Shown here piece after piece: positions 7,444 through 21,398 of a stretch of DNA of 64,000 bases (positions within the stretch are counted from its first letter, which is position 1; each line of letters opens with the position of its first letter). This stretch comes from Myxococcales bacterium (GTDB lineage Bacteria > Myxococcota_A > Polyangia > Polyangiales > Houyiibacteriaceae), in the NCBI GenBank assembly GCA_029861865.1, contig JAOTYL010000011.1, forward strand, positions 1-64,000, in the 5' to 3' direction. The notes beneath the pieces are model-generated. The model was given only the letters and a program-made list of their open reading frames with translations. It was not told the DNA's origin and made no database searches. Made by a program: the position numbers and the translations under genes.

Positions 7444-8136
7444 TCAGCCGTCGCCGGCGACCATCGGGTAGACCACGCCCGCCAAGGCACCGCCAACGAT
7501 CGGTGCGACCCAGAACAACCAAAGCTGCTCGAGAGCCCACCCACCGGCAACGACGGCGGTACCCGTGCTTCGCGCGGGGTTCACCGAGAGGTTGTCGACG
7601 GGGATGCCCACCAAGTGGATGACGATCAGCCCAAGACCGATCGCGATGGGGGCGATCCCGGTCGGAGCGCGCTTGTCCGTCGCACCGAGGATGATGAAGA
7701 GGAAGATAAACGTGAGAACAATCTCGGCGAGAAGGGCCGCGGTCATTGAGTAGCCGCCGGGGGAATGCTCGCCGTAGCCATTGGATGCAAAGCCGCCCAC
7801 CTCGAAGCCAGCCTTGCCGGACGCGATGACATAGAGGACACCCGCCGCCGCAATCGCACCAAGGACCTGCGCGATGATATAAGGAACGAGCTCGGACGCG
7901 GGAAACCGCCTGCCGACCAAGAGGCCAACCGAGACGGCCGGATTGATGTGACACCCGGAGATGTGGCCGATCGCATAGACCATCGTCAGGAGCGAAAGCC
8001 CAAACGCGAGCGAGACGCCTACAAAGCCGATCCCAAGCTCGGGAAACGCGGCCGCAAGCACCGCGCTGCCACAACCGCCAAAGACCAGCCAAAACGTTCC
8101 GACAAACTCCGCCGCGACTTTGTTTCCTAGCGCCAT
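7444..8136 (-). CDS. aqpZ: Aquaporin Z
   Basis: Water channel of the MIP family with six transmembrane helices and two half-helix NPA loops: HINPAVS and VNPARS. The segment [20 protein letters not shown] is characteristic of AqpZ rather than glycerol facilitators: the His and the Arg belong to the narrow water-selective filter, and the residue following the second NPA is Arg, not the Asp-containing loop of GlpF. The ATG at 8136 gives [19 protein letters not shown] and is preceded by GAAGGAGGA; a start at 8184 is less likely. Length (230 residues) is normal. It faces the BamB-like gene tail-to-tail. Confidence 0.95.
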
Positions 8137-8306
8137 GCCGTCCTCCTTCGCCCGCAAATGCCGGGGCGTCGGCGATATTCGCATCGGGGAGGGAGGATGT
8201 ACAGGGTCAGTAGGGGCAGTGTCCGTGTCCCTCCGAGTAGACGACTATCGCTGTTGTTGCTGCATCGCCAACCCCCGGATGACGAATCGTGTACCATCGG
8301 CCCGGC

Positions 8307-9032: not shown

Positions 9033-9060
9033 CGCTGCAGGTTGCTAGTTCGACATTCTC

Positions 9061-11556
9061 CTATGCTCCTTGACGACGTCGGCGTCGCGACCAGAGCGAG
9101 AACAACCCAGCGAGCAGGAGCAGGTCCCAAAGGTCGATTTGGCCCGTGGGAATCGCACTGCATCCACCCAAAAGCTGGGTCGGGCGCGGTTCTTCCGTGA
9201 TGCTGCTTTCACTTGCCGTGAACCGGTCGGCATCGCCCTCGAGCAAGTTCAAGTCCCCGTTGGCGTCCACTTCGATCAACCAACACCTCGCCTCCCCATC
9301 GCCCAAAGAAGCGCAGAGCTCGTAGGTTTCGTGTAGCGAGAAGCAGGCGGGCAGCCGTCCGCTCTTCGACTTCGAGTTCCCATGGGTCACGACCGCTTCC
9401 TCGACCACATTCCATGCTCCCGCGGCCGTCCGTGCGTCGTCCATGTCGATGGCGAAAAACTCCCAGACGACATCGCAACCGTCGGGTAAAGGAGCGCTTT
9501 CGAGAGTGAGCGCCTTTCGGTTATTCCCCTTGCCTTTGGAACCACCGATGCCGCCTTTGGACACGACGCGAATCTTCGCGCAGTCCGTGGCGATTGCGCC
9601 CTGGTCGTCGGTCACCGTGACGCAAGCGTTGTAACGGCCCTTTTGCGTGTAGGTGTGAGAGGTCGCATTCGTCGTGGTCTCTTCCGAGCTTCCGTCGCCG
9701 AATGACCAGGCGTAGGCAACGACCTGACCGTCGGCGTCGGAGGCCGCTGCCTCGACCGCAACGTCGAGCGGTGCCTCGCCCGAGGTGCTACTCACGCTCA
9801 GGGACACGAGTGGCGCCCGATTTCCACCGGGAGGCGGGAGCTCGCACGATGCGCCTGTATAGCCATCAATGCATTCGCACGCATAGGAGCTCAGCCCATC
9901 GAAACAGGTGCCGCCGTTTTGGCAGGGATTCGGCGTGCAATCGTCGGTGTCGATTTCACAGTGCGTGCCTTCAAAGCCCAGGGCGCAGTCACAGGTGTAG
10001 CCCGCCACATCATCCACACAGATGCCGCCGTTCTGGCAAGGATTGTCGGCGCAGTCGTTGACGTTGGTCTCACAGTGAGCCCCCGTGAAGCCCATGGGGC
10101 ACTCACAGGTGTAAGAGTCGACTCCGTCGACACAGAGGCCGCCGTTTTGACACACCACCGACGCACAATCATCGATGTTGATTTCGCAAAACGCTCCGGC
10201 AAAGCCCGCGGCACAAAGACAAGACCCGGCGTCACAGGTGCCACCGTTTTGGCAGACCACACCGGCACATGGATCGCTCGAGGCCCCATCAAACGAAACC
10301 GAAAACGTGGAGCCGTTGGGCGAGTGGCTGAGCTGGGTGAATGTGATTCCGTTGACGGCGTCGTAAAAGCTTTCCCCGTCCGGGAGCAGCGCTAGAAGAT
10401 ACGTTTTCTGACTGGTCGCTCCGTCGCCCTCGTGCACGCTCAGGCGGTTGAGATAAATCGAGGACAGGTTGGCGTCAAAGCCGGTCGCGGTTCTAAACGA
10501 CAGGTAATAGAAGTCGCCCGTGTCGGGCTTTGCGATCTTGAAAGATTGATGCGCGCCAACTTGACTGGGGTCAGGCGCCAACGGCGCCACTTGATAGGTT
10601 CCGCCCGAAGTGATGGTCGTAGCTGGCAGCCAGCCCATCTGCTCCTTGTGGGGAGCATTGACCTGGCGCAGCCGATTGTAAGCGAGACCCATGAAGTCGG
10701 TGTTGTCGCCGTAGTCGTATTCCGGGGTTGAGGCGTGTTGCATGCCGAGGTTGTGGCCGAGCTCGTGCGCATAGACATCTGGGATCCCACACCGAAAGAT
10801 CCAGGCCCGGCTCGGGTTTCCCCCGTGGGTCCCGGATCCAACCGCCGGACAAACGTTGGGCGGCAAGACGTAGACCTTGCGCATGTAGGTGTCGGGGTCG
10901 ATGCCACTCGCCCTCGCAGCGGCATCGGTCGCCTCAGACCAGCCCGCGACATCGCAAGTGGAGCTCGAGTAACCGATGTCGAAGGGGCCCACCGTGTCCC
11001 CCGTGAACCAGACCTCGCCGAACGAAGTCTCCCGGTAAAGGTCGTCGATGGACCCGTCGGACGGATCTGTGAACATGAGATCCTGTACCGCGTCCACGGA
11101 ACAACTCACATCGGCGTCCTGGAAGTTCGCGATCATCACGAGCGTGCGCTGCTCTCCAGAGACCATGAGCTGACCCGCCGCGATCGTCGTGACGCCCGCC
11201 CCACCGCTTCCGTTGGCGTCTACGATGAGCTCCTTGCCGCTCGGGAGACCACGCGCACGAACCCTCGCTCCGGTCATCAGGCCCTGAGGTGCTTCTTGTT
11301 CGAAGCGGAGCTCCCAGCGCTTGCCGGTTACCGACTCCTCGAGCGTGAAACGTCGCTCTGCCTGTCCGCGCTCGAAGTCATCGCTGACGATGACCTCCAG
11401 CTTGCCCTCCACAGCGACGACTTGCCCGCGTTTCCCGGGCGCCGCGATCCCGGTCCGCGGCGCCAGTAGCAAGGCGATGCTGAGCGCGACGAGCCATACG
11501 AGATGCACGCGCGCGGCGCGACCGGAGAGCAGTACCTCCGCTGATTTTCTGGACAT
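9061..11556 (-). CDS. Secreted zinc metalloprotease with four EGF-like repeats, PKD domain and C-terminal anchor
   Basis: An 831-residue exported protein. Residues 17-39 form a signal peptide. The zinc site HELGHNLGMQH (His264, Glu265, His268, His274) and a downstream Met-containing DFMGL fit the metzincin-like gametolysin/M11 fold. Four EGF-like modules follow (about 430-457, 462-495, 500-533, 538-571), each with CQNGGxC, and three opening with a D-D/N-C calcium-binding-type signature. Residues 580-665 form a PKD domain (YAWSFGDGSSEETT). The C-terminus has GGCSA, a hydrophobic helix (WDLLLLAGLFSLW) and RRRRRQ, resembling the MYXO-CTERM sorting signal of Myxococcota. Substrate unknown; a predatory, matrix or developmental role is speculation. 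Confidence 0.92.
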   Translation of the reverse strand: MSRKSAEVLLSGRAARVHLVWLVALSIALLLAPRTGIAAPGKRGQVVAVEGKLEVIVSDDFERGQAERRFTLEESVTGKRWELRFEQEAPQGLMTGARVRARGLPSGKELIVDANGSGGAGVTTIAAGQLMVSGEQRTLVMIANFQDADVSCSVDAVQDLMFTDPSDGSIDDLYRETSFGEVWFTGDTVGPFDIGYSSSTCDVAGWSEATDAAARASGIDPDTYMRKVYVLPPNVCPAVGSGTHGGNPSRAWIFRCGIPDVYAHELGHNLGMQHASTPEYDYGDNTDFMGLAYNRLRQVNAPHKEQMGWLPATTITSGGTYQVAPLAPDPSQVGAHQSFKIAKPDTGDFYYLSFRTATGFDANLSSIYLNRLSVHEGDGATSQKTYLLALLPDGESFYDAVNGITFTQLSHSPNGSTFSVSFDGASSDPCAGVVCQNGGTCDAGSCLCAAGFAGAFCEINIDDCASVVCQNGGLCVDGVDSYTCECPMGFTGAHCETNVNDCADNPCQNGGICVDDVAGYTCDCALGFEGTHCEIDTDDCTPNPCQNGGTCFDGLSSYACECIDGYTGASCELPPPGGNRAPLVSLSVSSTSGEAPLDVAVEAAASDADGQVVAYAWSFGDGSSEETTTNATSHTYTQKGRYNACVTVTDDQGAIATDCAKIRVVSKGGIGGSKGKGNNRKALTLESAPLPDGCDVVWEFFAIDMDDARTAAGAWNVVEEAVVTHGNSKSKSGRLPACFSLHETYELCASLGDGEARCWLIEVDANGDLNLLEGDADRFTASESSITEEPRPTQLLGGCSAIPTGQIDLWDLLLLAGLFSLWSRRRRRQGA

Positions 11557-11674
11557 CCCCCTACTCCTTAAGGGCTAATCTGGCCGTTGAGTCGGGAGGT
11601 GGCAACCCCTAAAGCGCAGGCAATCGCGCAGATCGACAAACCTGTGAGCCGCAGCACTGAAAGTGTCGACCGAT

Positions 11675-11714
11675 TGTCGCTACTTGTGGCGACGTGTCGC
11701 TGCTCGCAGCGACA
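11675..11714. promoter_or_regulatory. Two adjacent inverted repeats upstream of the metalloprotease
   Basis: In the 220-bp gap upstream of the metalloprotease gene, two small hairpins lie head-to-tail: TGTCGC/GCGACG (11675-11693) and TGTCGCTG/CAGCGACA (11695-11714). The arm TGTCGCT is repeated, so they could be tandem operator sites or an RNA structure. The rest of the gap (11557-11674, 11715-11776) shows no gene. Function is a guess. Confidence 0.3.
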
Positions 11715-11776
11715 TGTCAGCACGCATTGTGCGCGAGACCCCTGCGAAAGCGTTGCCGCCGCGGTCCGCGCCAGAG

Positions 11777-13459
11777 CTACCGGAGTTCCTCGAGCCTTAC
11801 CCCTCGCAGTATCAGCTGAGCGCCCGGCGCTGTAGGGAGGAGGCCCGCGCTGCCCACCAGAGTGACGCCGCCCGCGCCACGGGCGTCGAGCGTCAGCTCT
11901 CCACGAACCTCGGGCAGCGCCCGGTCCAGCATCAGGCGCCGTACAGCGGCAAACACACGCGAGTCGAAGCGGATTAAATCCGGCCCTTCGGTGGCGTTGG
12001 CCAGCTCGATGGCGCCGCGTAAGGGGCAGTCGTTGGCGGCCCGCGTGCAAGCCCGCAACTCGAGATCGACTACCGTGTCCACCTCGAGCACAGCAAAGGC
12101 TTGACGCTCGAAGGCACCGATGTCGGTGATGCCCGCAACCCTCCGAGGATCGCCACGACCGCGCTGGTCCCAGCGGAGGGGCTCGCCGCGCTCATCGACG
12201 GCCGACGCATTGTCGCCCAAGTTGATCGCGGGGCTCCCCCCGCTGAGCGGAAGGGTTTGCGTGGGCCCGTTATAGCCCCCGAGCTTGCCGAGCCTTGGAT
12301 CTGCGCGGCTGATTGGCTCGGCGCACCCGTCGTTCGCCTCGATGAGATTGTGGACGCTTTTCGCGTCAACCGGCCCGGCAGCCGCGCAGTCCGCGCTGCC
12401 GCCCTCGCTGTTGGCCACGATGGTGTTGCGCAGCAGCATCGGGCCCTCGCTGTAGATCCCGCCCCCGACCCGGGCGCTGTTGCCGGAGAACGTGCAGTTG
12501 GTGACCGTAAGGGGGGCCTCGCTGGCCAAGCCGCCCCCGGCTTTCCCCGCTCGGTTGCCGACGAACGTGCTGTTGATGACGACGAGGCTGCCGCCCACGT
12601 GCGCAATGCCGCCGCCATCTGAAGAGGCGCGGTTGCGAAAGAAGGTAACGCCCTTGACCACCAAATCTCCCCGGTTGACGATCCCGCCGCCCTTCTCTGA
12701 ATGACCCGCCGAGATCGTGAGGTGCTTCAACGTGACCTTCGCTCCCTCAGCTAAAAAAAACACGCGGCGTTGATGTTCCCCGCTCACGGTCACGCCACTC
12801 GGTTTCCAGAGCCTGCCTTCGATGTACCCGTCGATGGTGACCTCGCCGACTAAAGCCGGCAAGTCGGTCGCCAGCGCGATCTTCTGCGGCGTTGCAAAGG
12901 GACCGGCCGTCGAATCGAACGTGATGCTATCCGGACCCTGAAGAGCGTTGGCATTCAGAATCGCCTGGCGCAACGAACCCTCACCTGCGTCGGCGACCGT
13001 CGTCACGACGAAATCGTTCTGTGGGATTCTCAAGGTCGTACGGCCTGCAGATCGATCGATCGAATAGGCATCTGACGCCTCGAGATTCAGGATGACGGTT
13101 TCAGCAGCTTCCGCCGCAACGTCATCGAGGGCTTCGAGGACCAACTCGATGAAGGCTTGTCCAGCGGGGATGATTGCAGACACCGTATTGGCATCAACTT
13201 CATCCGCACCGCGGACGGCGTAATCCGCTTCGAAGACAGCGTCTCCGCCGATCGAAAGAGTCACCGCCAGGTCCCCCGCGGTTCGGTCGCGTTGGATTCG
13301 GACCCTTGCGCGCTTGCCCTCGGGGACGACGTGCTCGAGTGCGGTGATACTCAGTTTCGCCTTTGGCCCTTGCGCTGAGCTGGTCGAGCTAAGACATCCG
13401 CCGCATGCCAGGCTGAGGATAAGCACGGCACACTTCAGAAAGAAAAAGGGCCCGGCCAT
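11777..13459 (-). CDS. Lipoprotein with Calx-beta domain and right-handed beta-helix
   Basis: The 560-residue protein has a lipoprotein leader (AVLILSLACGGC). A Calx-beta domain (about 35-150) contains DYAVRG and AETVILNLEASD. A parallel beta-helix follows, introduced by a CSLREA-like motif (GEGSLRQAILNAN) and built of polymorphic-outer-membrane-protein-type repeats such as GGGIVNRGDL, SDGGGIAHVGG and CTFSGNSARVGGGIY. A second CSLREA-like motif (NDCPLRGAIELAN) near residue 480 opens another helix, but the protein stops only about 80 residues later, so the second helix looks truncated. The ATG lies in the loop of a strong terminator hairpin; a GTG 33 bp downstream, which still keeps part of the signal peptide, is an alternative start. 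Likely a surface adhesin-like protein; no enzyme motif. Confidence 0.8.
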   Translation of the reverse strand: MAGPFFFLKCAVLILSLACGGCLSSTSSAQGPKAKLSITALEHVVPEGKRARVRIQRDRTAGDLAVTLSIGGDAVFEADYAVRGADEVDANTVSAIIPAGQAFIELVLEALDDVAAEAAETVILNLEASDAYSIDRSAGRTTLRIPQNDFVVTTVADAGEGSLRQAILNANALQGPDSITFDSTAGPFATPQKIALATDLPALVGEVTIDGYIEGRLWKPSGVTVSGEHQRRVFFLAEGAKVTLKHLTISAGHSEKGGGIVNRGDLVVKGVTFFRNRASSDGGGIAHVGGSLVVINSTFVGNRAGKAGGGLASEAPLTVTNCTFSGNSARVGGGIYSEGPMLLRNTIVANSEGGSADCAAAGPVDAKSVHNLIEANDGCAEPISRADPRLGKLGGYNGPTQTLPLSGGSPAINLGDNASAVDERGEPLRWDQRGRGDPRRVAGITDIGAFERQAFAVLEVDTVVDLELRACTRAANDCPLRGAIELANATEGPDLIRFDSRVFAAVRRLMLDRALPEVRGELTLDARGAGGVTLVGSAGLLPTAPGAQLILRGVRLEELR

Positions 13460-13477
13460 GTGGCCGGGCCCCTTTTT
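13443..13477 (-). terminator. Strong intrinsic terminator of the DUF11-type gene, overlapping the next start codon
   Basis: A perfect 11-bp stem (GGGCCCGGCCA with TGGCCGGGCCC) has a two-base loop. It is flanked by AAAAA on one side and CTTTTT on the other, so it can act in both directions. It lies 18 bp past the stop codon at 13495. The ATG of the next lipoprotein gene (13459) falls exactly at the loop. Confidence 0.85.
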
Positions 13478-13494
13478 CAGCTCAAAGCGCTGAT

Positions 13495-16400
13495 TTACGG
13501 TACGCAGAGCGTTCCGTTGTTGTAGGAATCGAGGATCCCGGCCAGTTCGTTGGCTTCTTGCTTGGTCCGGCTGTTGATCTCAGTGGTTCCTTTGGAGAAG
13601 TAGTCACCCGTGCCGGTGAAGCCGATATCCACGAGCAACATCTGCCCATCGATCACGGCCTGCCCGGCTTCCGGACACACCCCAGCGCCAGCGGTGTCGT
13701 TGGCGATTGCCGCCAACAGCTGAGCCGCCAGCCCATAGGCTGCGTCGTTGGCCTTCTTCTTGCCACTCGCGATGTCTCGCTTGTCGAGGATGTTGACCGC
13801 ATCCTGGGTGCCCTGGTCGCAGTCAAAGACGTCATCGTCTGCGATCATGTTCAGCAATCCGACCGTGATCCCCGGGGCTTGCAAAACATCATCAAGCAGC
13901 GCATTGCCACTGCCGAGGCGCTCTGCGGGCGTTCCACCGCCATTTTCGATGGCCGTGTCGACCTGGCCGCCACCGGAGCAGGAGTCCCAGTTCTTCCAGT
14001 AGCCGATGGTGCGCGGCTCACCGCCTGGGAACTCGTTGTTGATCTCGAAGACCTCTGTTGCTCCGGCGTCAGCGACGAAGTTGATGCATCGCTCATCGTT
14101 TGAATAGATGGCCGGTGGCGGCGCGTACATCGGATCGAAGACATTGCTCCAGCCCGGCGGCACGGCAACCGGATCGTCATTGACGGCCGGTACGAACGGA
14201 ATGAGCGTCTCCGGAGTCCCGTCGTCGTTGGCGTCGCCCATCCAGGTGTTCGTCCAGGCAGCGGGAATCGCCACCTCGCAGAGCCGATACACCCGGTACG
14301 GATCCAACTGGTATGGGACGAGGTCCGCATCGAATGCCACCATCGAAGGTGGCGACATGACCGTTCCGATGACCGGATCGTCCTGTGTGCAGCCATTAAC
14401 CCCGCAGTCTTGGAGTTGGAACACCCAATTCTGCGTCGCTGGGTTTGGTGACTCGTTGGGTTCGCCCTGGGTCAGCTTGATGATCTTGGCCTCACCCGCC
14501 ACGACGCAGGTGTCCGAAGCCATCGCCTCGTCCGTATTGGGCAAACCGGTGAATTCCGGCAGCACCCACGAGGCCGTCACGGTGTTGCTCACGGTTGCTT
14601 GTCCTGCGAACGGACCCGGCTTGCTCACATCGAAATCCTTTGAATCGCCAGCCGCCAGCGGGAAGGTCCCGATGCCGTCATCTGCGGTCACGATCAGCTC
14701 CACATCGCCGGTGTTCGCGATGGTGACCAAGAACGTCGCCGGCCCGTCCTGCGGCACAGGCTCGTTCGTGCAGGTCTTCGTTACCGTGAAGCTGGGATCG
14801 ATGAGATCAACCGTATGCCCGTCCGTCAGCGTACCGGAGCCACCAAATCCATCGCTGAATTCCACGGTTACCGTGTTCAACAGTGGATCGGGGTCATCGA
14901 TCTGCACCACGTATTCGTAGGTGATGGTGCAGGACTCACCGATCAGCAGCTTGGTTGGCGCCACGGGGCAGTCAAACGATGTAATCGCCCCGTTGGTGGT
15001 GCCATCGGTCAGATCCCCAACCAGGCTGTCGGTGATGGAATCCAGTGTCAGGTCGAGCGCACCGATGTTGTTGATGCTCACCGTGTATTCGACCGTGTCG
15101 CCGGCCTTGGAGATTTCCGGCCCATTCTTTGCGACCGAAAGCGCCTGCTCCTCTGGAATCACAGTGATCGTGACGGAATCCTCGCCTGAAAGCTCATTCG
15201 GAAAACCCTCTGGCGAACAGAGCACCGTAGCGGTGTTCGTGCACTCGATGTCGCCGTCGAAGCTGCATGACGGATCGTTCGCAGGATCACTGAACATCTT
15301 GCCTTTCATGATCACTTCGGTGTCACCCGGCATCAGCATCACACCCTTCCGATCAATCTCGAGCACGGGATCGCTGATGTCGCACACCAGCGTCGGAGTG
15401 TCGCCCGAGCTCGTATTCTCGAGTGTCAACGTATAGTCGACATTGCCACCGATCAGGAGCAGCGTCGGAGACGCTGACTTGCCGGTAGCGACGCAGTCCG
15501 GGTCATCGCCGCCGAAGCAGATCGACGGCTGGAACAGGTTCGTTTCCGCATCATCGCTGTCCGTGAACTCGAGCGAGGTGGGATCGGCGAACTCGGTGTA
15601 GACGATGTCAACCGTGTTTACGAGTGGATCGTCATCACCTTCTTCCACAGTCCGGCTGTAGGTGATCGTGCAGCTCGCGCCGGGAGCGAGTGACGCGCCG
15701 CAATCAGAGTTGGCCGCGTTCGTCAGATCTCCTGCGAGGCTGTCGGTGATGCTCTGCTTGTAGAGCGTCGCGCGGCCGGTGTTCTCGACGGTGACCGAAT
15801 AGTTGACGTCATCGCCCACCTTGGAGAGTTCATCGGCCTCTTTGGTCACCTCGATGCCGCAGACCGGGAACGCGCCGAGGGCGAAGTCTTTGAGCTGCGC
15901 CGTTAGCGACTGAGACGAACGGGTCTCAGCCACGAACGAGCTGAAGCAGCCGATGTCCTGTCCGAGCAGCGCCGTGATGTCGAGTCCGAACTCAGCGAAA
16001 ACCGCCGGGTCGTACTCCGTGTTGCCGTCCTTGTCGAGATACGGGAAAACTGGGTCCCCCGTCTTGGTTGTCTCGTTGATCACGCCGCAGACGTCATCTC
16101 CTGCCGCTACGTTTGCGCAATCGGCTCCACCGACGAGCAGGACTGGACCCACCGGCTTGTTGCCGGGCCCAATTGTGTTGTCCCATCGGTACACCTGGAT
16201 GGCGCCCACGCCGCCGCCCATGGTGAACTCGGCCGCAACGAAGATATCCCCGTCGCTGTGGTCACCGATGAACGTTCCCGGTGTGTTGTCGTCGTCGGTG
16301 CCGAGTATGCCGTCATTGCCTGCGACGGGATCGCCGTCCGCGGTCTGCCCCGACAAGGTCACCGGCTGCCGAAAGAACCAGAAACCCACGTTGTTGGAGC

Positions 16401-16986
16401 CCTGCTCCGCGTACGTGTCGAGCCCGAAATAGAAAATGGTATGCCCGTCGTTCGGGTCGTCGTAGGCCGCAGCGAACGCATTGACGATGTCATTCTTGTC
16501 GGGCACTTGGTCGTTGAACGTGTCGTACAGCCACGGGCCGCCCGCTCCGTCCGCCGGGTCACTTGCACCGGGTCCGCAAGGATCCTGCAAGCATTCGGTG
16601 TCCTTGGACCCGCCGCCCGTGAAGAAGCTGATCTCGGGCGTTCTCCCTTCGAAGGGGCCCGGGATTTCGTTATTTGCGAACGTATCTTGGATAAACGCAG
16701 TGGCAAACGCACCGGACGTACCATTGAAGACGTTCTCCCAGTCGTCGCCCGGTACCAGAACGTCGTCCATGGTGTTGCCGTCTCCCGTGCCATCGACGAC
16801 ATCGAGCTCAAAGAGTCCGACGTCGTGAACCGCCTGCACGGAACTGCCCACACTCTCGTCGCCTCCGCTGGTACAGCCGAGCGCGGTAACACCCGACAGA
16901 CCGAGTAGTGCCACGCTCGTCAAAAAGCGCCGCGCGAACGCAACACTGCGCTTGTGTATAACAACCTTGTTTCGTTCCATCTCCAA
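13495..16986 (-). CDS. Large surface lipoprotein with DUF11-type repeats
   Basis: A 1163-residue lipoprotein: an n-region of Lys/Arg, a hydrophobic stretch and the lipobox TALGC (Cys38). Residues about 50-380 form an acidic Asp/Gly-rich N-domain. Then come repeated DUF11/conserved-repeat domains with the pattern sVTKxAdxxxxGDxVxYxVTVxNxG (e.g. KVGDDVNYSVTVENTG, KAGDTVEYTVSINNIG), each with the TNTVTV-like edge strand. The C-terminal region contains RTIGYWKNWDSC, a motif frequent in secreted repeat proteins. AAGGAG precedes the ATG at 16986. No catalytic motif; likely a cell-surface stalk or matrix protein. It is acidic and compositionally distinct from cytoplasmic neighbours. Confidence 0.85.
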   Translation of the reverse strand: MEMERNKVVIHKRSVAFARRFLTSVALLGLSGVTALGCTSGGDESVGSSVQAVHDVGLFELDVVDGTGDGNTMDDVLVPGDDWENVFNGTSGAFATAFIQDTFANNEIPGPFEGRTPEISFFTGGGSKDTECLQDPCGPGASDPADGAGGPWLYDTFNDQVPDKNDIVNAFAAAYDDPNDGHTIFYFGLDTYAEQGSNNVGFWFFRQPVTLSGQTADGDPVAGNDGILGTDDDNTPGTFIGDHSDGDIFVAAEFTMGGGVGAIQVYRWDNTIGPGNKPVGPVLLVGGADCANVAAGDDVCGVINETTKTGDPVFPYLDKDGNTEYDPAVFAEFGLDITALLGQDIGCFSSFVAETRSSQSLTAQLKDFALGAFPVCGIEVTKEADELSKVGDDVNYSVTVENTGRATLYKQSITDSLAGDLTNAANSDCGASLAPGASCTITYSRTVEEGDDDPLVNTVDIVYTEFADPTSLEFTDSDDAETNLFQPSICFGGDDPDCVATGKSASPTLLLIGGNVDYTLTLENTSSGDTPTLVCDISDPVLEIDRKGVMLMPGDTEVIMKGKMFSDPANDPSCSFDGDIECTNTATVLCSPEGFPNELSGEDSVTITVIPEEQALSVAKNGPEISKAGDTVEYTVSINNIGALDLTLDSITDSLVGDLTDGTTNGAITSFDCPVAPTKLLIGESCTITYEYVVQIDDPDPLLNTVTVEFSDGFGGSGTLTDGHTVDLIDPSFTVTKTCTNEPVPQDGPATFLVTIANTGDVELIVTADDGIGTFPLAAGDSKDFDVSKPGPFAGQATVSNTVTASWVLPEFTGLPNTDEAMASDTCVVAGEAKIIKLTQGEPNESPNPATQNWVFQLQDCGVNGCTQDDPVIGTVMSPPSMVAFDADLVPYQLDPYRVYRLCEVAIPAAWTNTWMGDANDDGTPETLIPFVPAVNDDPVAVPPGWSNVFDPMYAPPPAIYSNDERCINFVADAGATEVFEINNEFPGGEPRTIGYWKNWDSCSGGGQVDTAIENGGGTPAERLGSGNALLDDVLQAPGITVGLLNMIADDDVFDCDQGTQDAVNILDKRDIASGKKKANDAAYGLAAQLLAAIANDTAGAGVCPEAGQAVIDGQMLLVDIGFTGTGDYFSKGTTEINSRTKQEANELAGILDSYNNGTLCVP

Positions 16987-17251
16987 CTCCTTGCGAAACG
17001 ATTGGTTCCTTCCCGTTCCGTGCCCGGCTTGAGCAAGCGCAAACGGTTCTGAACGCGGCTAGTCACCCGTCCAGTACGGTGGACGACCGCTATACCGCTA
17101 GGGGGCTGAAGTTGTCTATACTTAAAGTTACTTCTCGGTTCGCTCTGAACGCGAGGCAAGCGCCACTACAATACAGGCAATGGCACTTCCGTGAGCAATG
17201 CGAACAACGTGAGCCAAAAGGCCTACGTCGGTTTGACGGGCGTCGCACCTC
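16987..17251. other. Intergenic region upstream of the DUF11-type gene
   Basis: This 265-bp stretch is lower in GC than its surroundings (for example around 17110-17130, CTATACTTAAAGTTAC). It probably holds the promoter of the large lipoprotein gene, but I cannot place -35/-10 boxes with confidence. No reading frame here has recognisable protein features. Confidence 0.4.
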
Positions 17252-17502
17252 AGATGCGTAGCGGCTGCTCGACGACGGCTTTGTGCTCCTCGGGGCAGTG
17301 CGTCGCGTCGGCTCGCCATTCGGCCGCACAATTCGCAGCGGCGGCGCTCATGCCGTGTGCAAACACGCTTGCAAGGACGGTGAGGATCACGACGTCGAAG
17401 ACCAGGTCGCCGTGGGGGAGGGCGGCCTCTTCCAAGATCAGGATCGCAAACAACAGCGACGCCAGGCCGCGCGGGCCCGAACCAGCCGAGGAACAGGACG
17501 CT
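17252..17502 (-). pseudogene. Truncated, frameshifted copy of the CPA1 antiporter 3' end
   Basis: The translated piece (GPRGLASLLFAILILEEAAL through HCPEEHKAVVEQPLR) is nearly identical to the C-terminus of the complete antiporter at 20142-21398. DNA similarity runs from about 17252 to 17502 against 20144-20398. One extra G in GCGGG at 17473-17475 (GCGG in the intact gene) breaks the frame; upstream of it the other frame still encodes VLFLGWF. The rest of the gene is missing. It lies in direct orientation relative to the intact copy, on the other side of the caspase-like gene. The remaining 17503-17681 shows nothing recognisable. Confidence 0.88.
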
Positions 17503-17681
17503 CGGTGCACGATGTCCGATTCCGACCGTCGAAGGGACATCGCACGCGCAAGGTCGGCACCCGGCGTGGGTCCGATGGGTAGCTCGCCGTCTGGATCGCC
17601 GCGATGTGGCGGCTGCTGGCTGTGCTCGCGCCGCTTTGCGCGCCTAGGAGAGTATGAGAGTCTAGCGATTGAGCGATCGTC

Positions 17682-20108: not shown

Positions 20109-20141
20109 TGATCGTGCGACGCGATCGAGCGGCCGCGTCTC

Positions 20142-21398
20142 TCACATGCGAAGCGGTTGCTCGACGACGGCCTTGTGCTCTTCGGGGCAGTGCGCCGCAT
20201 CGCTTGCCGCCCGGCCGTACCACCGCGCTGCGGGCGCAGCGCTCATGCCGTGTGCGAACACGCTTGCCAGCACGGTGAGGATCACGACGTCGAAAACCAA
20301 GGGACCGTGGGGGAGGGCGGCTTCTTCCAAGATCAGGATCGCAAACAAAAGTGACGCCAGGCCGCGCGGCCCGAACCAGCCCAGGAAGACCACGCTTGGA
20401 GCGCGCAATCCACTTCCCATCATCGAAATCGCAACGGGCACCATTCGAACCACCGTCAGGCTCAGAACGACGTAGAGCCACATGCGGCCGCTGCCCTCGG
20501 CGATCGTCGGCCAGGCGAGGTGCACGCCGAGTAGCAGAAACACCAGGAGAACCAGCAGCTGCCCCTCGGCTTCGAGGAACTGGTAGAGATACTCGCACTG
20601 ACCTCGTTGGCTGTTGCCGAGGGTCATGCCCGCCACGAACGCGGCGATGAAGCCGTTGCCCCCGATCTGCTCGGCACCGGTGAAGGCGAGGAGGGCGAGG
20701 GCGATCCCGGCGAGCCGCCCGAAGTTGCCGCTCATCCACTCCCGGCTCTGCGAGGCGTTGATCAACCGGCCGCCGATCCACGCCACCGCAACGCCTGCCA
20801 ACGGCCCGAGGGTGACCTGCCGCGCTGCAAACCAAACCCACTCGGAGGCAGTGCGCGCTTCGCCTCCGCCCATGCTGGCAAGCGCGGCAAAGATCAACAC
20901 GACCGGCAGTGCGATGCCGTCGTTCAATCCGCTCTCCACGTTCAGGGCCTGGCGGATGCGGAGCGGCACAGAAGGCGTGCTGACCACGGCTTGACCGAGC
21001 GCGGCGTCGGTTGGTGCAAGGATCGCACCGAGCACCGCGGCTTCGAGCCAGGTCGTCTGCGGGAATAGGAGCTTGGCGGCGAGGGCACCCGCGATGATGG
21101 TAAGCGGCATGCCGATCCCGAGGAGGCGCGCCGGCAGCCCGAGCTCGTTCCGCAACACGCGAAGGTCGATGCGCGCCGCATCGCCAAACAGCACGAGCAC
21201 GAGGGTCAGCTCGGCAAGCACGTGAATCACCCCTTGGTCGATGTGCATGCTGAGCGCCGCCAAGCTTCCGCTACCAAAGAGCAGCCCAAGGGTCACGAAC
21301 ACCATCGGAGGTGTGACGATGGTCCGCTCGAGCCGCTTCGATACCAACCCGTAGCCGAGGACGAAGAGCGCTATCCACATGAAGGTCGTCGCGTCCAC
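20142..21398 (-). CDS. CPA1-type Na+/H+ antiporter
   Basis: A 418-residue polytopic membrane protein with about 12 helices. It has the CPA1/NhaP-type motifs LGAILAPTDAALGQAV and NVESGLNDGIALPVVL, where the Asn-Asp pair is the ion-binding site of electroneutral antiporters. It exchanges H+ for Na+ or another monovalent cation across the inner membrane. There is no cytoplasmic RCK/TrkA-N domain; a short His/Glu-rich tail (CPEEHKAVVEQPLR) follows the last helix. Tail-to-tail with the caspase-like gene; a broken copy of its 3' end lies beyond that gene at 17252-17502. Confidence 0.9.
   Translation of the reverse strand: MDATTFMWIALFVLGYGLVSKRLERTIVTPPMVFVTLGLLFGSGSLAALSMHIDQGVIHVLAELTLVLVLFGDAARIDLRVLRNELGLPARLLGIGMPLTIIAGALAAKLLFPQTTWLEAAVLGAILAPTDAALGQAVVSTPSVPLRIRQALNVESGLNDGIALPVVLIFAALASMGGGEARTASEWVWFAARQVTLGPLAGVAVAWIGGRLINASQSREWMSGNFGRLAGIALALLAFTGAEQIGGNGFIAAFVAGMTLGNSQRGQCEYLYQFLEAEGQLLVLLVFLLLGVHLAWPTIAEGSGRMWLYVVLSLTVVRMVPVAISMMGSGLRAPSVVFLGWFGPRGLASLLFAILILEEAALPHGPLVFDVVILTVLASVFAHGMSAAPAARWYGRAASDAAHCPEEHKAVVEQPLRM

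Follow-up and report, generated by a model that had tools for sequence, protein, structure and literature searches.

A predicted surface-anchored M11 metalloprotease with EGF modules, probably gained by horizontal transfer in a member of Myxococcota

The window, that is, the whole stretch of 64,000 nucleotides analysed here, contains on its minus strand an open reading frame for a protein of 831 aa (9061..11556; ATG start, TAG stop included), with AAGGAG, a good ribosome-binding site, 8 bases upstream of the ATG. The protein starts with a signal peptide (aa 1-39, 11440..11556) assigned from hydropathy and a modelled helix, as the hydrophobicity peak of the protein is at aa 16-33 and the model has a helix at 12-31; the cleavage point is putative. 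It is followed by the pro-region, a beta domain that is mostly confident in the model (aa 40-130, 11167..11439), and by the M11 metzincin catalytic domain (aa 137-379, 10420..11148; PF05548), which includes the zinc site HELGHNLGMQH (aa 264-274, 10735..10767) and the Met-turn methionine M289 (10690..10692). Next come four EGF modules: a short-type module 1 (aa 430-457, 10186..10269), seen in EGF_2 and EGF matches, and modules 2 (aa 464-495, 10072..10167), 3 (aa 502-533, 9958..10053) and 4 (aa 540-571, 9844..9939), all with calcium-type residues and delimited by Pfam together with the cysteine and motif pattern. A PKD domain (aa 579-662, 9571..9822; PF18911, PKD_4) is separated from the C-terminal tail by a linker of about 130 residues to which no fold was assigned (aa 663-796, 9169..9570; no Pfam match, mostly low pLDDT). 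The tail itself (aa 797-831, 9064..9168), GGCSAIPTGQIDLWDLLLLAGLFSLWSRRRRRQGA, consists of a cysteine (Cys 799), a transmembrane helix and an arginine-rich end, and was assigned with a profile of tails from the same genome.

The preliminary description of this gene had named an M11 protease with the HELGHNLGMQH site, four EGF-like repeats and a PKD domain, and the Pfam search of the reading frame bore out all three: Peptidase_M11 (PF05548) scored 63.6 bits against a cut-off of 21, EGF (PF00008) 101.6 bits in four stretches against 21.5, and PKD_4 60.2 bits against 27. The reading frame is an M11 metzincin joined to four EGF modules, a PKD domain and a Cys-TM-Arg tail.

Both features of M11 membership, the HExxHxxGxxH zinc site and the Met-turn, are present in the protease. 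In an alignment of 24 sequences of the catalytic unit (the protease and 23 relatives) five residues, H264, E265, H268, H274 and M289, do not vary, and C201 and C236 are nearly invariant. The AlphaFold2 model mostly has pLDDT > 90 at approximately aa 45-420; as its confidence is low outside this part, we make no statement on the fold of the EGF modules, the PKD domain and the linker. The best structural match of the model is the zymogen of the M6 protease InhA2 (4yu5, 4yu6; Z 24.4, 3.0 A, 289 residues), but at an identity of 15-16%, followed by adamalysin-type/ADAM metzincins with Z of about 11. Since the M6 profile TIGR03296 yields 39.2 bits, under its cut-off of 110.8, we assign the protease by sequence to M11 rather than M6. 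The match to the InhA2 zymogen begins at model residue 59, covering a part of the pro-region; as the model gives the latter a defined structure, part of which falls within this match, the protein is likely synthesized as an inactive precursor. The beta domain of the pro-region (aa 40-130, 11167-11439) may be OB-like, as it produces weak Foldseek matches to CcmE, with a non-significant E-value.

Relatives of the catalytic unit were found by scanning a genome collection with an alignment of the protease and one relative, which yielded 34 loci. The Pfam count took 24 of them (L080 and L082, in a wrong frame, and L094-L101 were left out), and among the resulting 25 members, the protease included, an M11 match was observed in 22 and NPCBM_assoc/NEW3 in 9, whereas EGF and PKD occurred only in the protease itself and in none of the 24 relatives. 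The closest relatives come from Gammaproteobacteria (48% identity), Nitrospirae (47%), Methyloprofundus (45%), Desulfocapsa (44%) and Omnitrophota (42%). In a tree of 29 rows, built with 23 of the 24 Pfam-scanned loci plus L045, L058, L059, L061 and L064 (the Myxococcota M11 loci L060, L062, L063 and L065 were left out), the protease falls within a mixed bacterial group, without a well-supported sister; the nearest rows by path are those from Gammaproteobacteria, Desulfocapsa, Nitrospirae and Methyloprofundus, and L059, L077 and L092, the Myxococcota relatives, are placed apart from it. In the sampled Myxococcota, PF05548 matches at E <= 1e-5 in only 9 of 377 genomes, and the genome carrying the protease is the sole one in its family and order with such a match; a weaker relative (L045) is found in genome G036 of the same order. 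We therefore place the catalytic unit, as judged from these alignments, in a family scattered over unrelated bacteria.

The six-cysteine pattern applied here is found in three of the four EGF modules; as 2000 shuffles of the residues of the protease produced it a single time, chance is excluded. The claim that the modules are of the calcium type held in part. Calcium-ligand motifs before C1 and after C3, in the form used here and with D also accepted at the E/Q position, fit three of the four modules; in turn, the EGF_CA profile (PF07645) gave 12.6 bits, under the cut-off of 27, so that calcium binding rests on the motif residues. Hence we did not accept a Pfam assignment to calcium-binding EGF, though the residues are present. 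Modules 2-4 were also checked for glycosylation patterns of the Notch type: the O-fucose one fits a single module, and we place no weight on it, and the O-glucose one fits none of the three. The array is the only one in its genome, as PF00008 at E <= 1 matches no other protein there, and a search of the genome with the whole protein for a second such protease matched elsewhere solely in the PKD part.

EGF arrays in Myxococcota are not rare, those similar to the array of the protease being present in 34 of 377 genomes (E <= 1e-10). The nearest ones sampled are myxobacterial (L112, L113 and L103), with 66-67% identity over 112 residues. On the animal side, sampled via PDB chains only, the best matches to the array are Notch1 (180 bits) and Delta-like 1 (174 bits), with 45-55% identity in the four alignment blocks that were counted among those obtained. 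Thus, within these data myxobacteria provide the nearest source, and the link of the EGF modules to animal proteins, suggested in the preliminary description, is weakened; the modules appear, by their similarity, to be of the kind circulating in Myxococcota. The match to M11 (E <= 1e-5) and the match to the EGF array (E <= 1e-10) coincide in one of the 377 genomes, that of the protease. Among 29 EGF-bearing frames from 31 loci (L022 and L116, as well as L023 and L117, being identical frames) HExxH was not found within the stretches covered, many of which are cut at the locus end. The combination of EGF modules with a MYXO-CTERM-like tail already exists in five proteins from genomes of the same family (L030, L032, L035, L037 and L043), where, as in the protease, the EGF arrays are followed by the tail; these proteins differ from it in having no protease by Pfam and EGF modules of another subtype. 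They carry EGF_CA arrays, Temptin_C and cysteine-rich myxo_disulf_rpt repeats. The myxobacterial EGF arrays lend themselves to studying whether calcium is bound by EGF modules of bacteria and whether these modules mediate contact between cells.

The tail had been described as MYXO-CTERM-like, and here the evidence is divided. The MYXO-CTERM profile TIGR03901, which the preliminary description itself had named as the criterion, gives 8.3 bits, under the cut-off of 20, so that by this criterion the formal signature is missing; JDVT-CTERM (NF033191) gives 16.9-17.6 bits, also under its cut-off of 27. Scanning the genome with TIGR03901 produced 18 matches at E <= 10, six of them over the cut-off, and the tail of the protease was absent among them. 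We retained 11 of the 18 matches for an own-genome tail profile, dropping L008 (the frame continues for approximately 200 residues), L013 (without Cys) and L015, L016, L018, L019 and L020 as not tail-like. The tails of this genome are mostly of the single-cysteine type, often GGCS. Against 1687 background tails, which included the 11 training tails and a second copy of the protease's own tail, the tail of the protease obtained 25.8 bits with the profile (E 6.3e-7). The other tails outside the training set with E up to about 1e-3 also resemble MYXO-CTERM tails, and the best non-CTERM tails score well apart from that of the protease. With leave-one-out profiles the tail of the protease scored 12.6-26.5 bits, and in 6 of the 11 it ranked above the tail that had been withheld.

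The Cys motif, the transmembrane helix, the Arg-rich end and an N-terminal signal peptide, the latter predicted from hydropathy, are all present in the protease, and the order of Gly-Cys, helix and Arg is the same as in other tails of the genome. Of the five EGF proteins of same-family genomes that end in a Cys-TM-Arg tail, two are over the cut-off of TIGR03901; as the profile misses the other three, its miss on the tail of the protease weighs little. The genome also encodes the myxosortase MrtC (NF040594; 258.4 bits, cut-off 195), whose function is predicted from the profile match, and the type II secretion secretin GspD (479.8 bits, cut-off 351.35), whereas MrtX reaches only 108.7-110.9 bits, under the cut-off of 180. 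In Myxococcus xanthus, the protease that cuts MYXO-CTERM is MrtX, the cysteines are required, surface display depends on MrtX and export proceeds via type II secretion (PMC11980579); the paper names MrtC as a candidate from profiling in Chondromyces crocatus. The protease shares with MYXO-CTERM proteins of M. xanthus such as TraA (PMC11980579) the signal peptide and the tail of Cys, helix and Arg, and its genome, like the M. xanthus system, has a processing CPBP protease, but the tail is a single-Cys one below the curated cut-off, and it is MrtC, not MrtX, that exceeds the cut-off. Thus, the tail is probably of the MYXO-CTERM type, as judged by its similarity to other tails of this genome, and its cleavage and surface anchoring are predicted. 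If so, the curated MYXO-CTERM model may miss tails in this lineage, and as the tail qualifies by own-genome likeness, surface proteins of this kind may be undercounted there.

The gene is located in a species-specific block of 8.6 kb (9034..17614), which holds the protease gene and two more large ORFs and is absent from the syntenic sibling species G018. The other two ORFs (11777-13459 and 13495-16986, both on the minus strand) encode a choice-of-anchor Q beta-helix protein and a DUF11/DUF7507 protein; these two surface-type neighbours (11777-16986) may share the history of the block. The gene order is kept in G018, most neighbours having 85-92% protein identity. In the slot between the GT2 and thioredoxin-like genes, which in the window contains three large minus-strand ORFs, the protease included, G018 has a single different ORF of 695 aa (L134, 13577-15664) that reads like a multicopper oxidase, as named by eye. 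Compared with 18 other genomes of the genus, the block matches solely in an exchanger remnant (in G018, G007, G010, G016 and G011) and in stretches of at most 59 bases (in G003, G012 and G011); the protease itself matches these 18 genomes, many of which are incomplete, in the PKD part or nowhere.

The remnant (17249..17533, minus strand) is the frameshifted 3' end of a Na+/H+ exchanger gene and lies at the right end of the block. It is 83% identical to 20141-20427, and the intact exchanger gene (20142-21398, PF00999) lies 2.6 kb from it. The remnant is a likely trace of the arrival of the block and fits an insertion, by recombination, of DNA that would have carried the end of an exchanger gene. 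An RNA gene in this repeat (17249-17533) was considered and rejected, as there was no Rfam match, the folding z-score was 0.31, and the repeat is a broken exchanger end. GC3 is lower in the EGF part (0.673) than in the M11 part (0.763). Foreign codon usage of the protease gene was not seen, the usage being ordinary compared to the window, and hence the transfer rests on distribution and synteny. From these the species probably gained the block by horizontal transfer.

Taken together, the data lead us to a mosaic, horizontally gained, surface-anchored M11 metalloprotease, with the activity and the anchoring being predicted; we estimate the probability of this reading at roughly 0.7. The preliminary interpretation as a whole is partly supported. 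The gene product would be a zinc endopeptidase that is synthesized in an inactive form and secreted. It would be exported via Sec and then presumably lose its pro-region, and the M11 domain, as suggested by conservation of the ligands, would cut proteins via zinc held by H264, H268 and H274. Together with the PKD domain, the four disulfide-bonded EGF modules could form a spacer or a binding arm, possibly stiffened by calcium. The tail may be handled like a MYXO-CTERM tag, Cys799 being modified and the helix being removed by the intramembrane protease MrtC; the protein would then pass the type II secretion system, the machinery for which is present, and would stay on the outer surface. It would likely serve to degrade proteins on the surface of prey, of neighbouring cells or of matrix. 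If this is right, a module from unrelated bacteria has been joined in one accessory gene to EGF modules and a lineage-specific sorting tail, and hence the protease family may be re-targeted by swapping of the C-terminal parts.

Two alternatives concern the origin of the protein. If the genus had possessed it from the start and the other species had lost it, instead of this one having gained it, ordinary codon usage would be natural, and the incompleteness of many genus genomes would also favour such a history. Vice versa, the different single ORF in the slot of the sibling, the other 18 genomes, which match the PKD part only or nothing, the separate positions of L059, L077 and L092 in the tree, and the extra broken copy of a neighbouring gene at the end of the block all speak against loss, which we consider improbable. 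Direct acquisition of the EGF modules from an animal or another eukaryote could be suggested by Notch1 and Delta-like 1 being the best PDB matches, but the myxobacterial arrays are closer than these in the four blocks, and such arrays are present in 34 of the 377 Myxococcota genomes sampled, making such a direct source very unlikely. As the animal side consisted of PDB chains only, and as short modules give weak trees, the data leave room for an old eukaryotic origin of the EGF modules of bacteria.

The other two alternatives concern the function. The C-terminal helix with its five arginines might be an ordinary anchor, so that the protease would act at the inner membrane, facing the periplasm, without a myxosortase. 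The scores of both TIGR03901 and JDVT-CTERM under the cut-offs agree with that, as does the moderate hydrophobicity of the helix (1.77 for the best 15-mer), whereas the shared order of Gly-Cys, helix and Arg and the own-genome profile do not, and neither do the EGF and PKD modules, which are typical of outer-surface proteins; we regard an ordinary anchor as unlikely. Finally, the catalytic domain could be inactive and the protein an adhesin only, but the protein retains all zinc ligands along with the general-base glutamate and the Met-turn, and we give hardly any credence to this variant. The surface-anchored protease is our preferred reading.

Among known systems, the peptidase family M11 of gametolysin, a wall-lytic enzyme of green algae, shares with the protease the metzincin zinc site and the profile match, the protease being a bacterial form with EGF, PKD and the sorting tail. 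Bacterial M11 proteases whose C-terminal parts are of the NEW3 or Ig-like type (L068-L093) are 25-48% identical to it in the catalytic unit and differ in that no EGF or PKD is seen in the 24 scanned. The combination of domains looks new among what was searched, whereas its parts and the sorting principle are already known; in the literature, with most subscription journals outside the search, the combination was not found for EGF-bearing bacterial M11 or myxobacterial metalloproteases. In the animal ADAM/meprin layout, a metzincin is followed by EGF and then by a membrane-linked C-terminus. ADAM17 matches the model in fold with Z 10.9-11.0, and the protease differs from ADAM and meprin in having no disintegrin, MAM or TRAF domain by Pfam. 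One could speculate that the protein is a bacterial equivalent of the surface sheddases of animals, that is, a metzincin zymogen presented at the outer surface by a calcium-stiffened Notch-like EGF stalk, which would bind prey or partner cells and target the protease, and which would have been shuffled in Myxococcota independently of ADAM and meprin; this idea is doubtful, and we offer it tentatively.

Outside the block, the aquaporin Z gene (7444-8184), situated between a BamB-like gene and the GT2 gene, is missing from this place in G018, which makes it a second variable slot.
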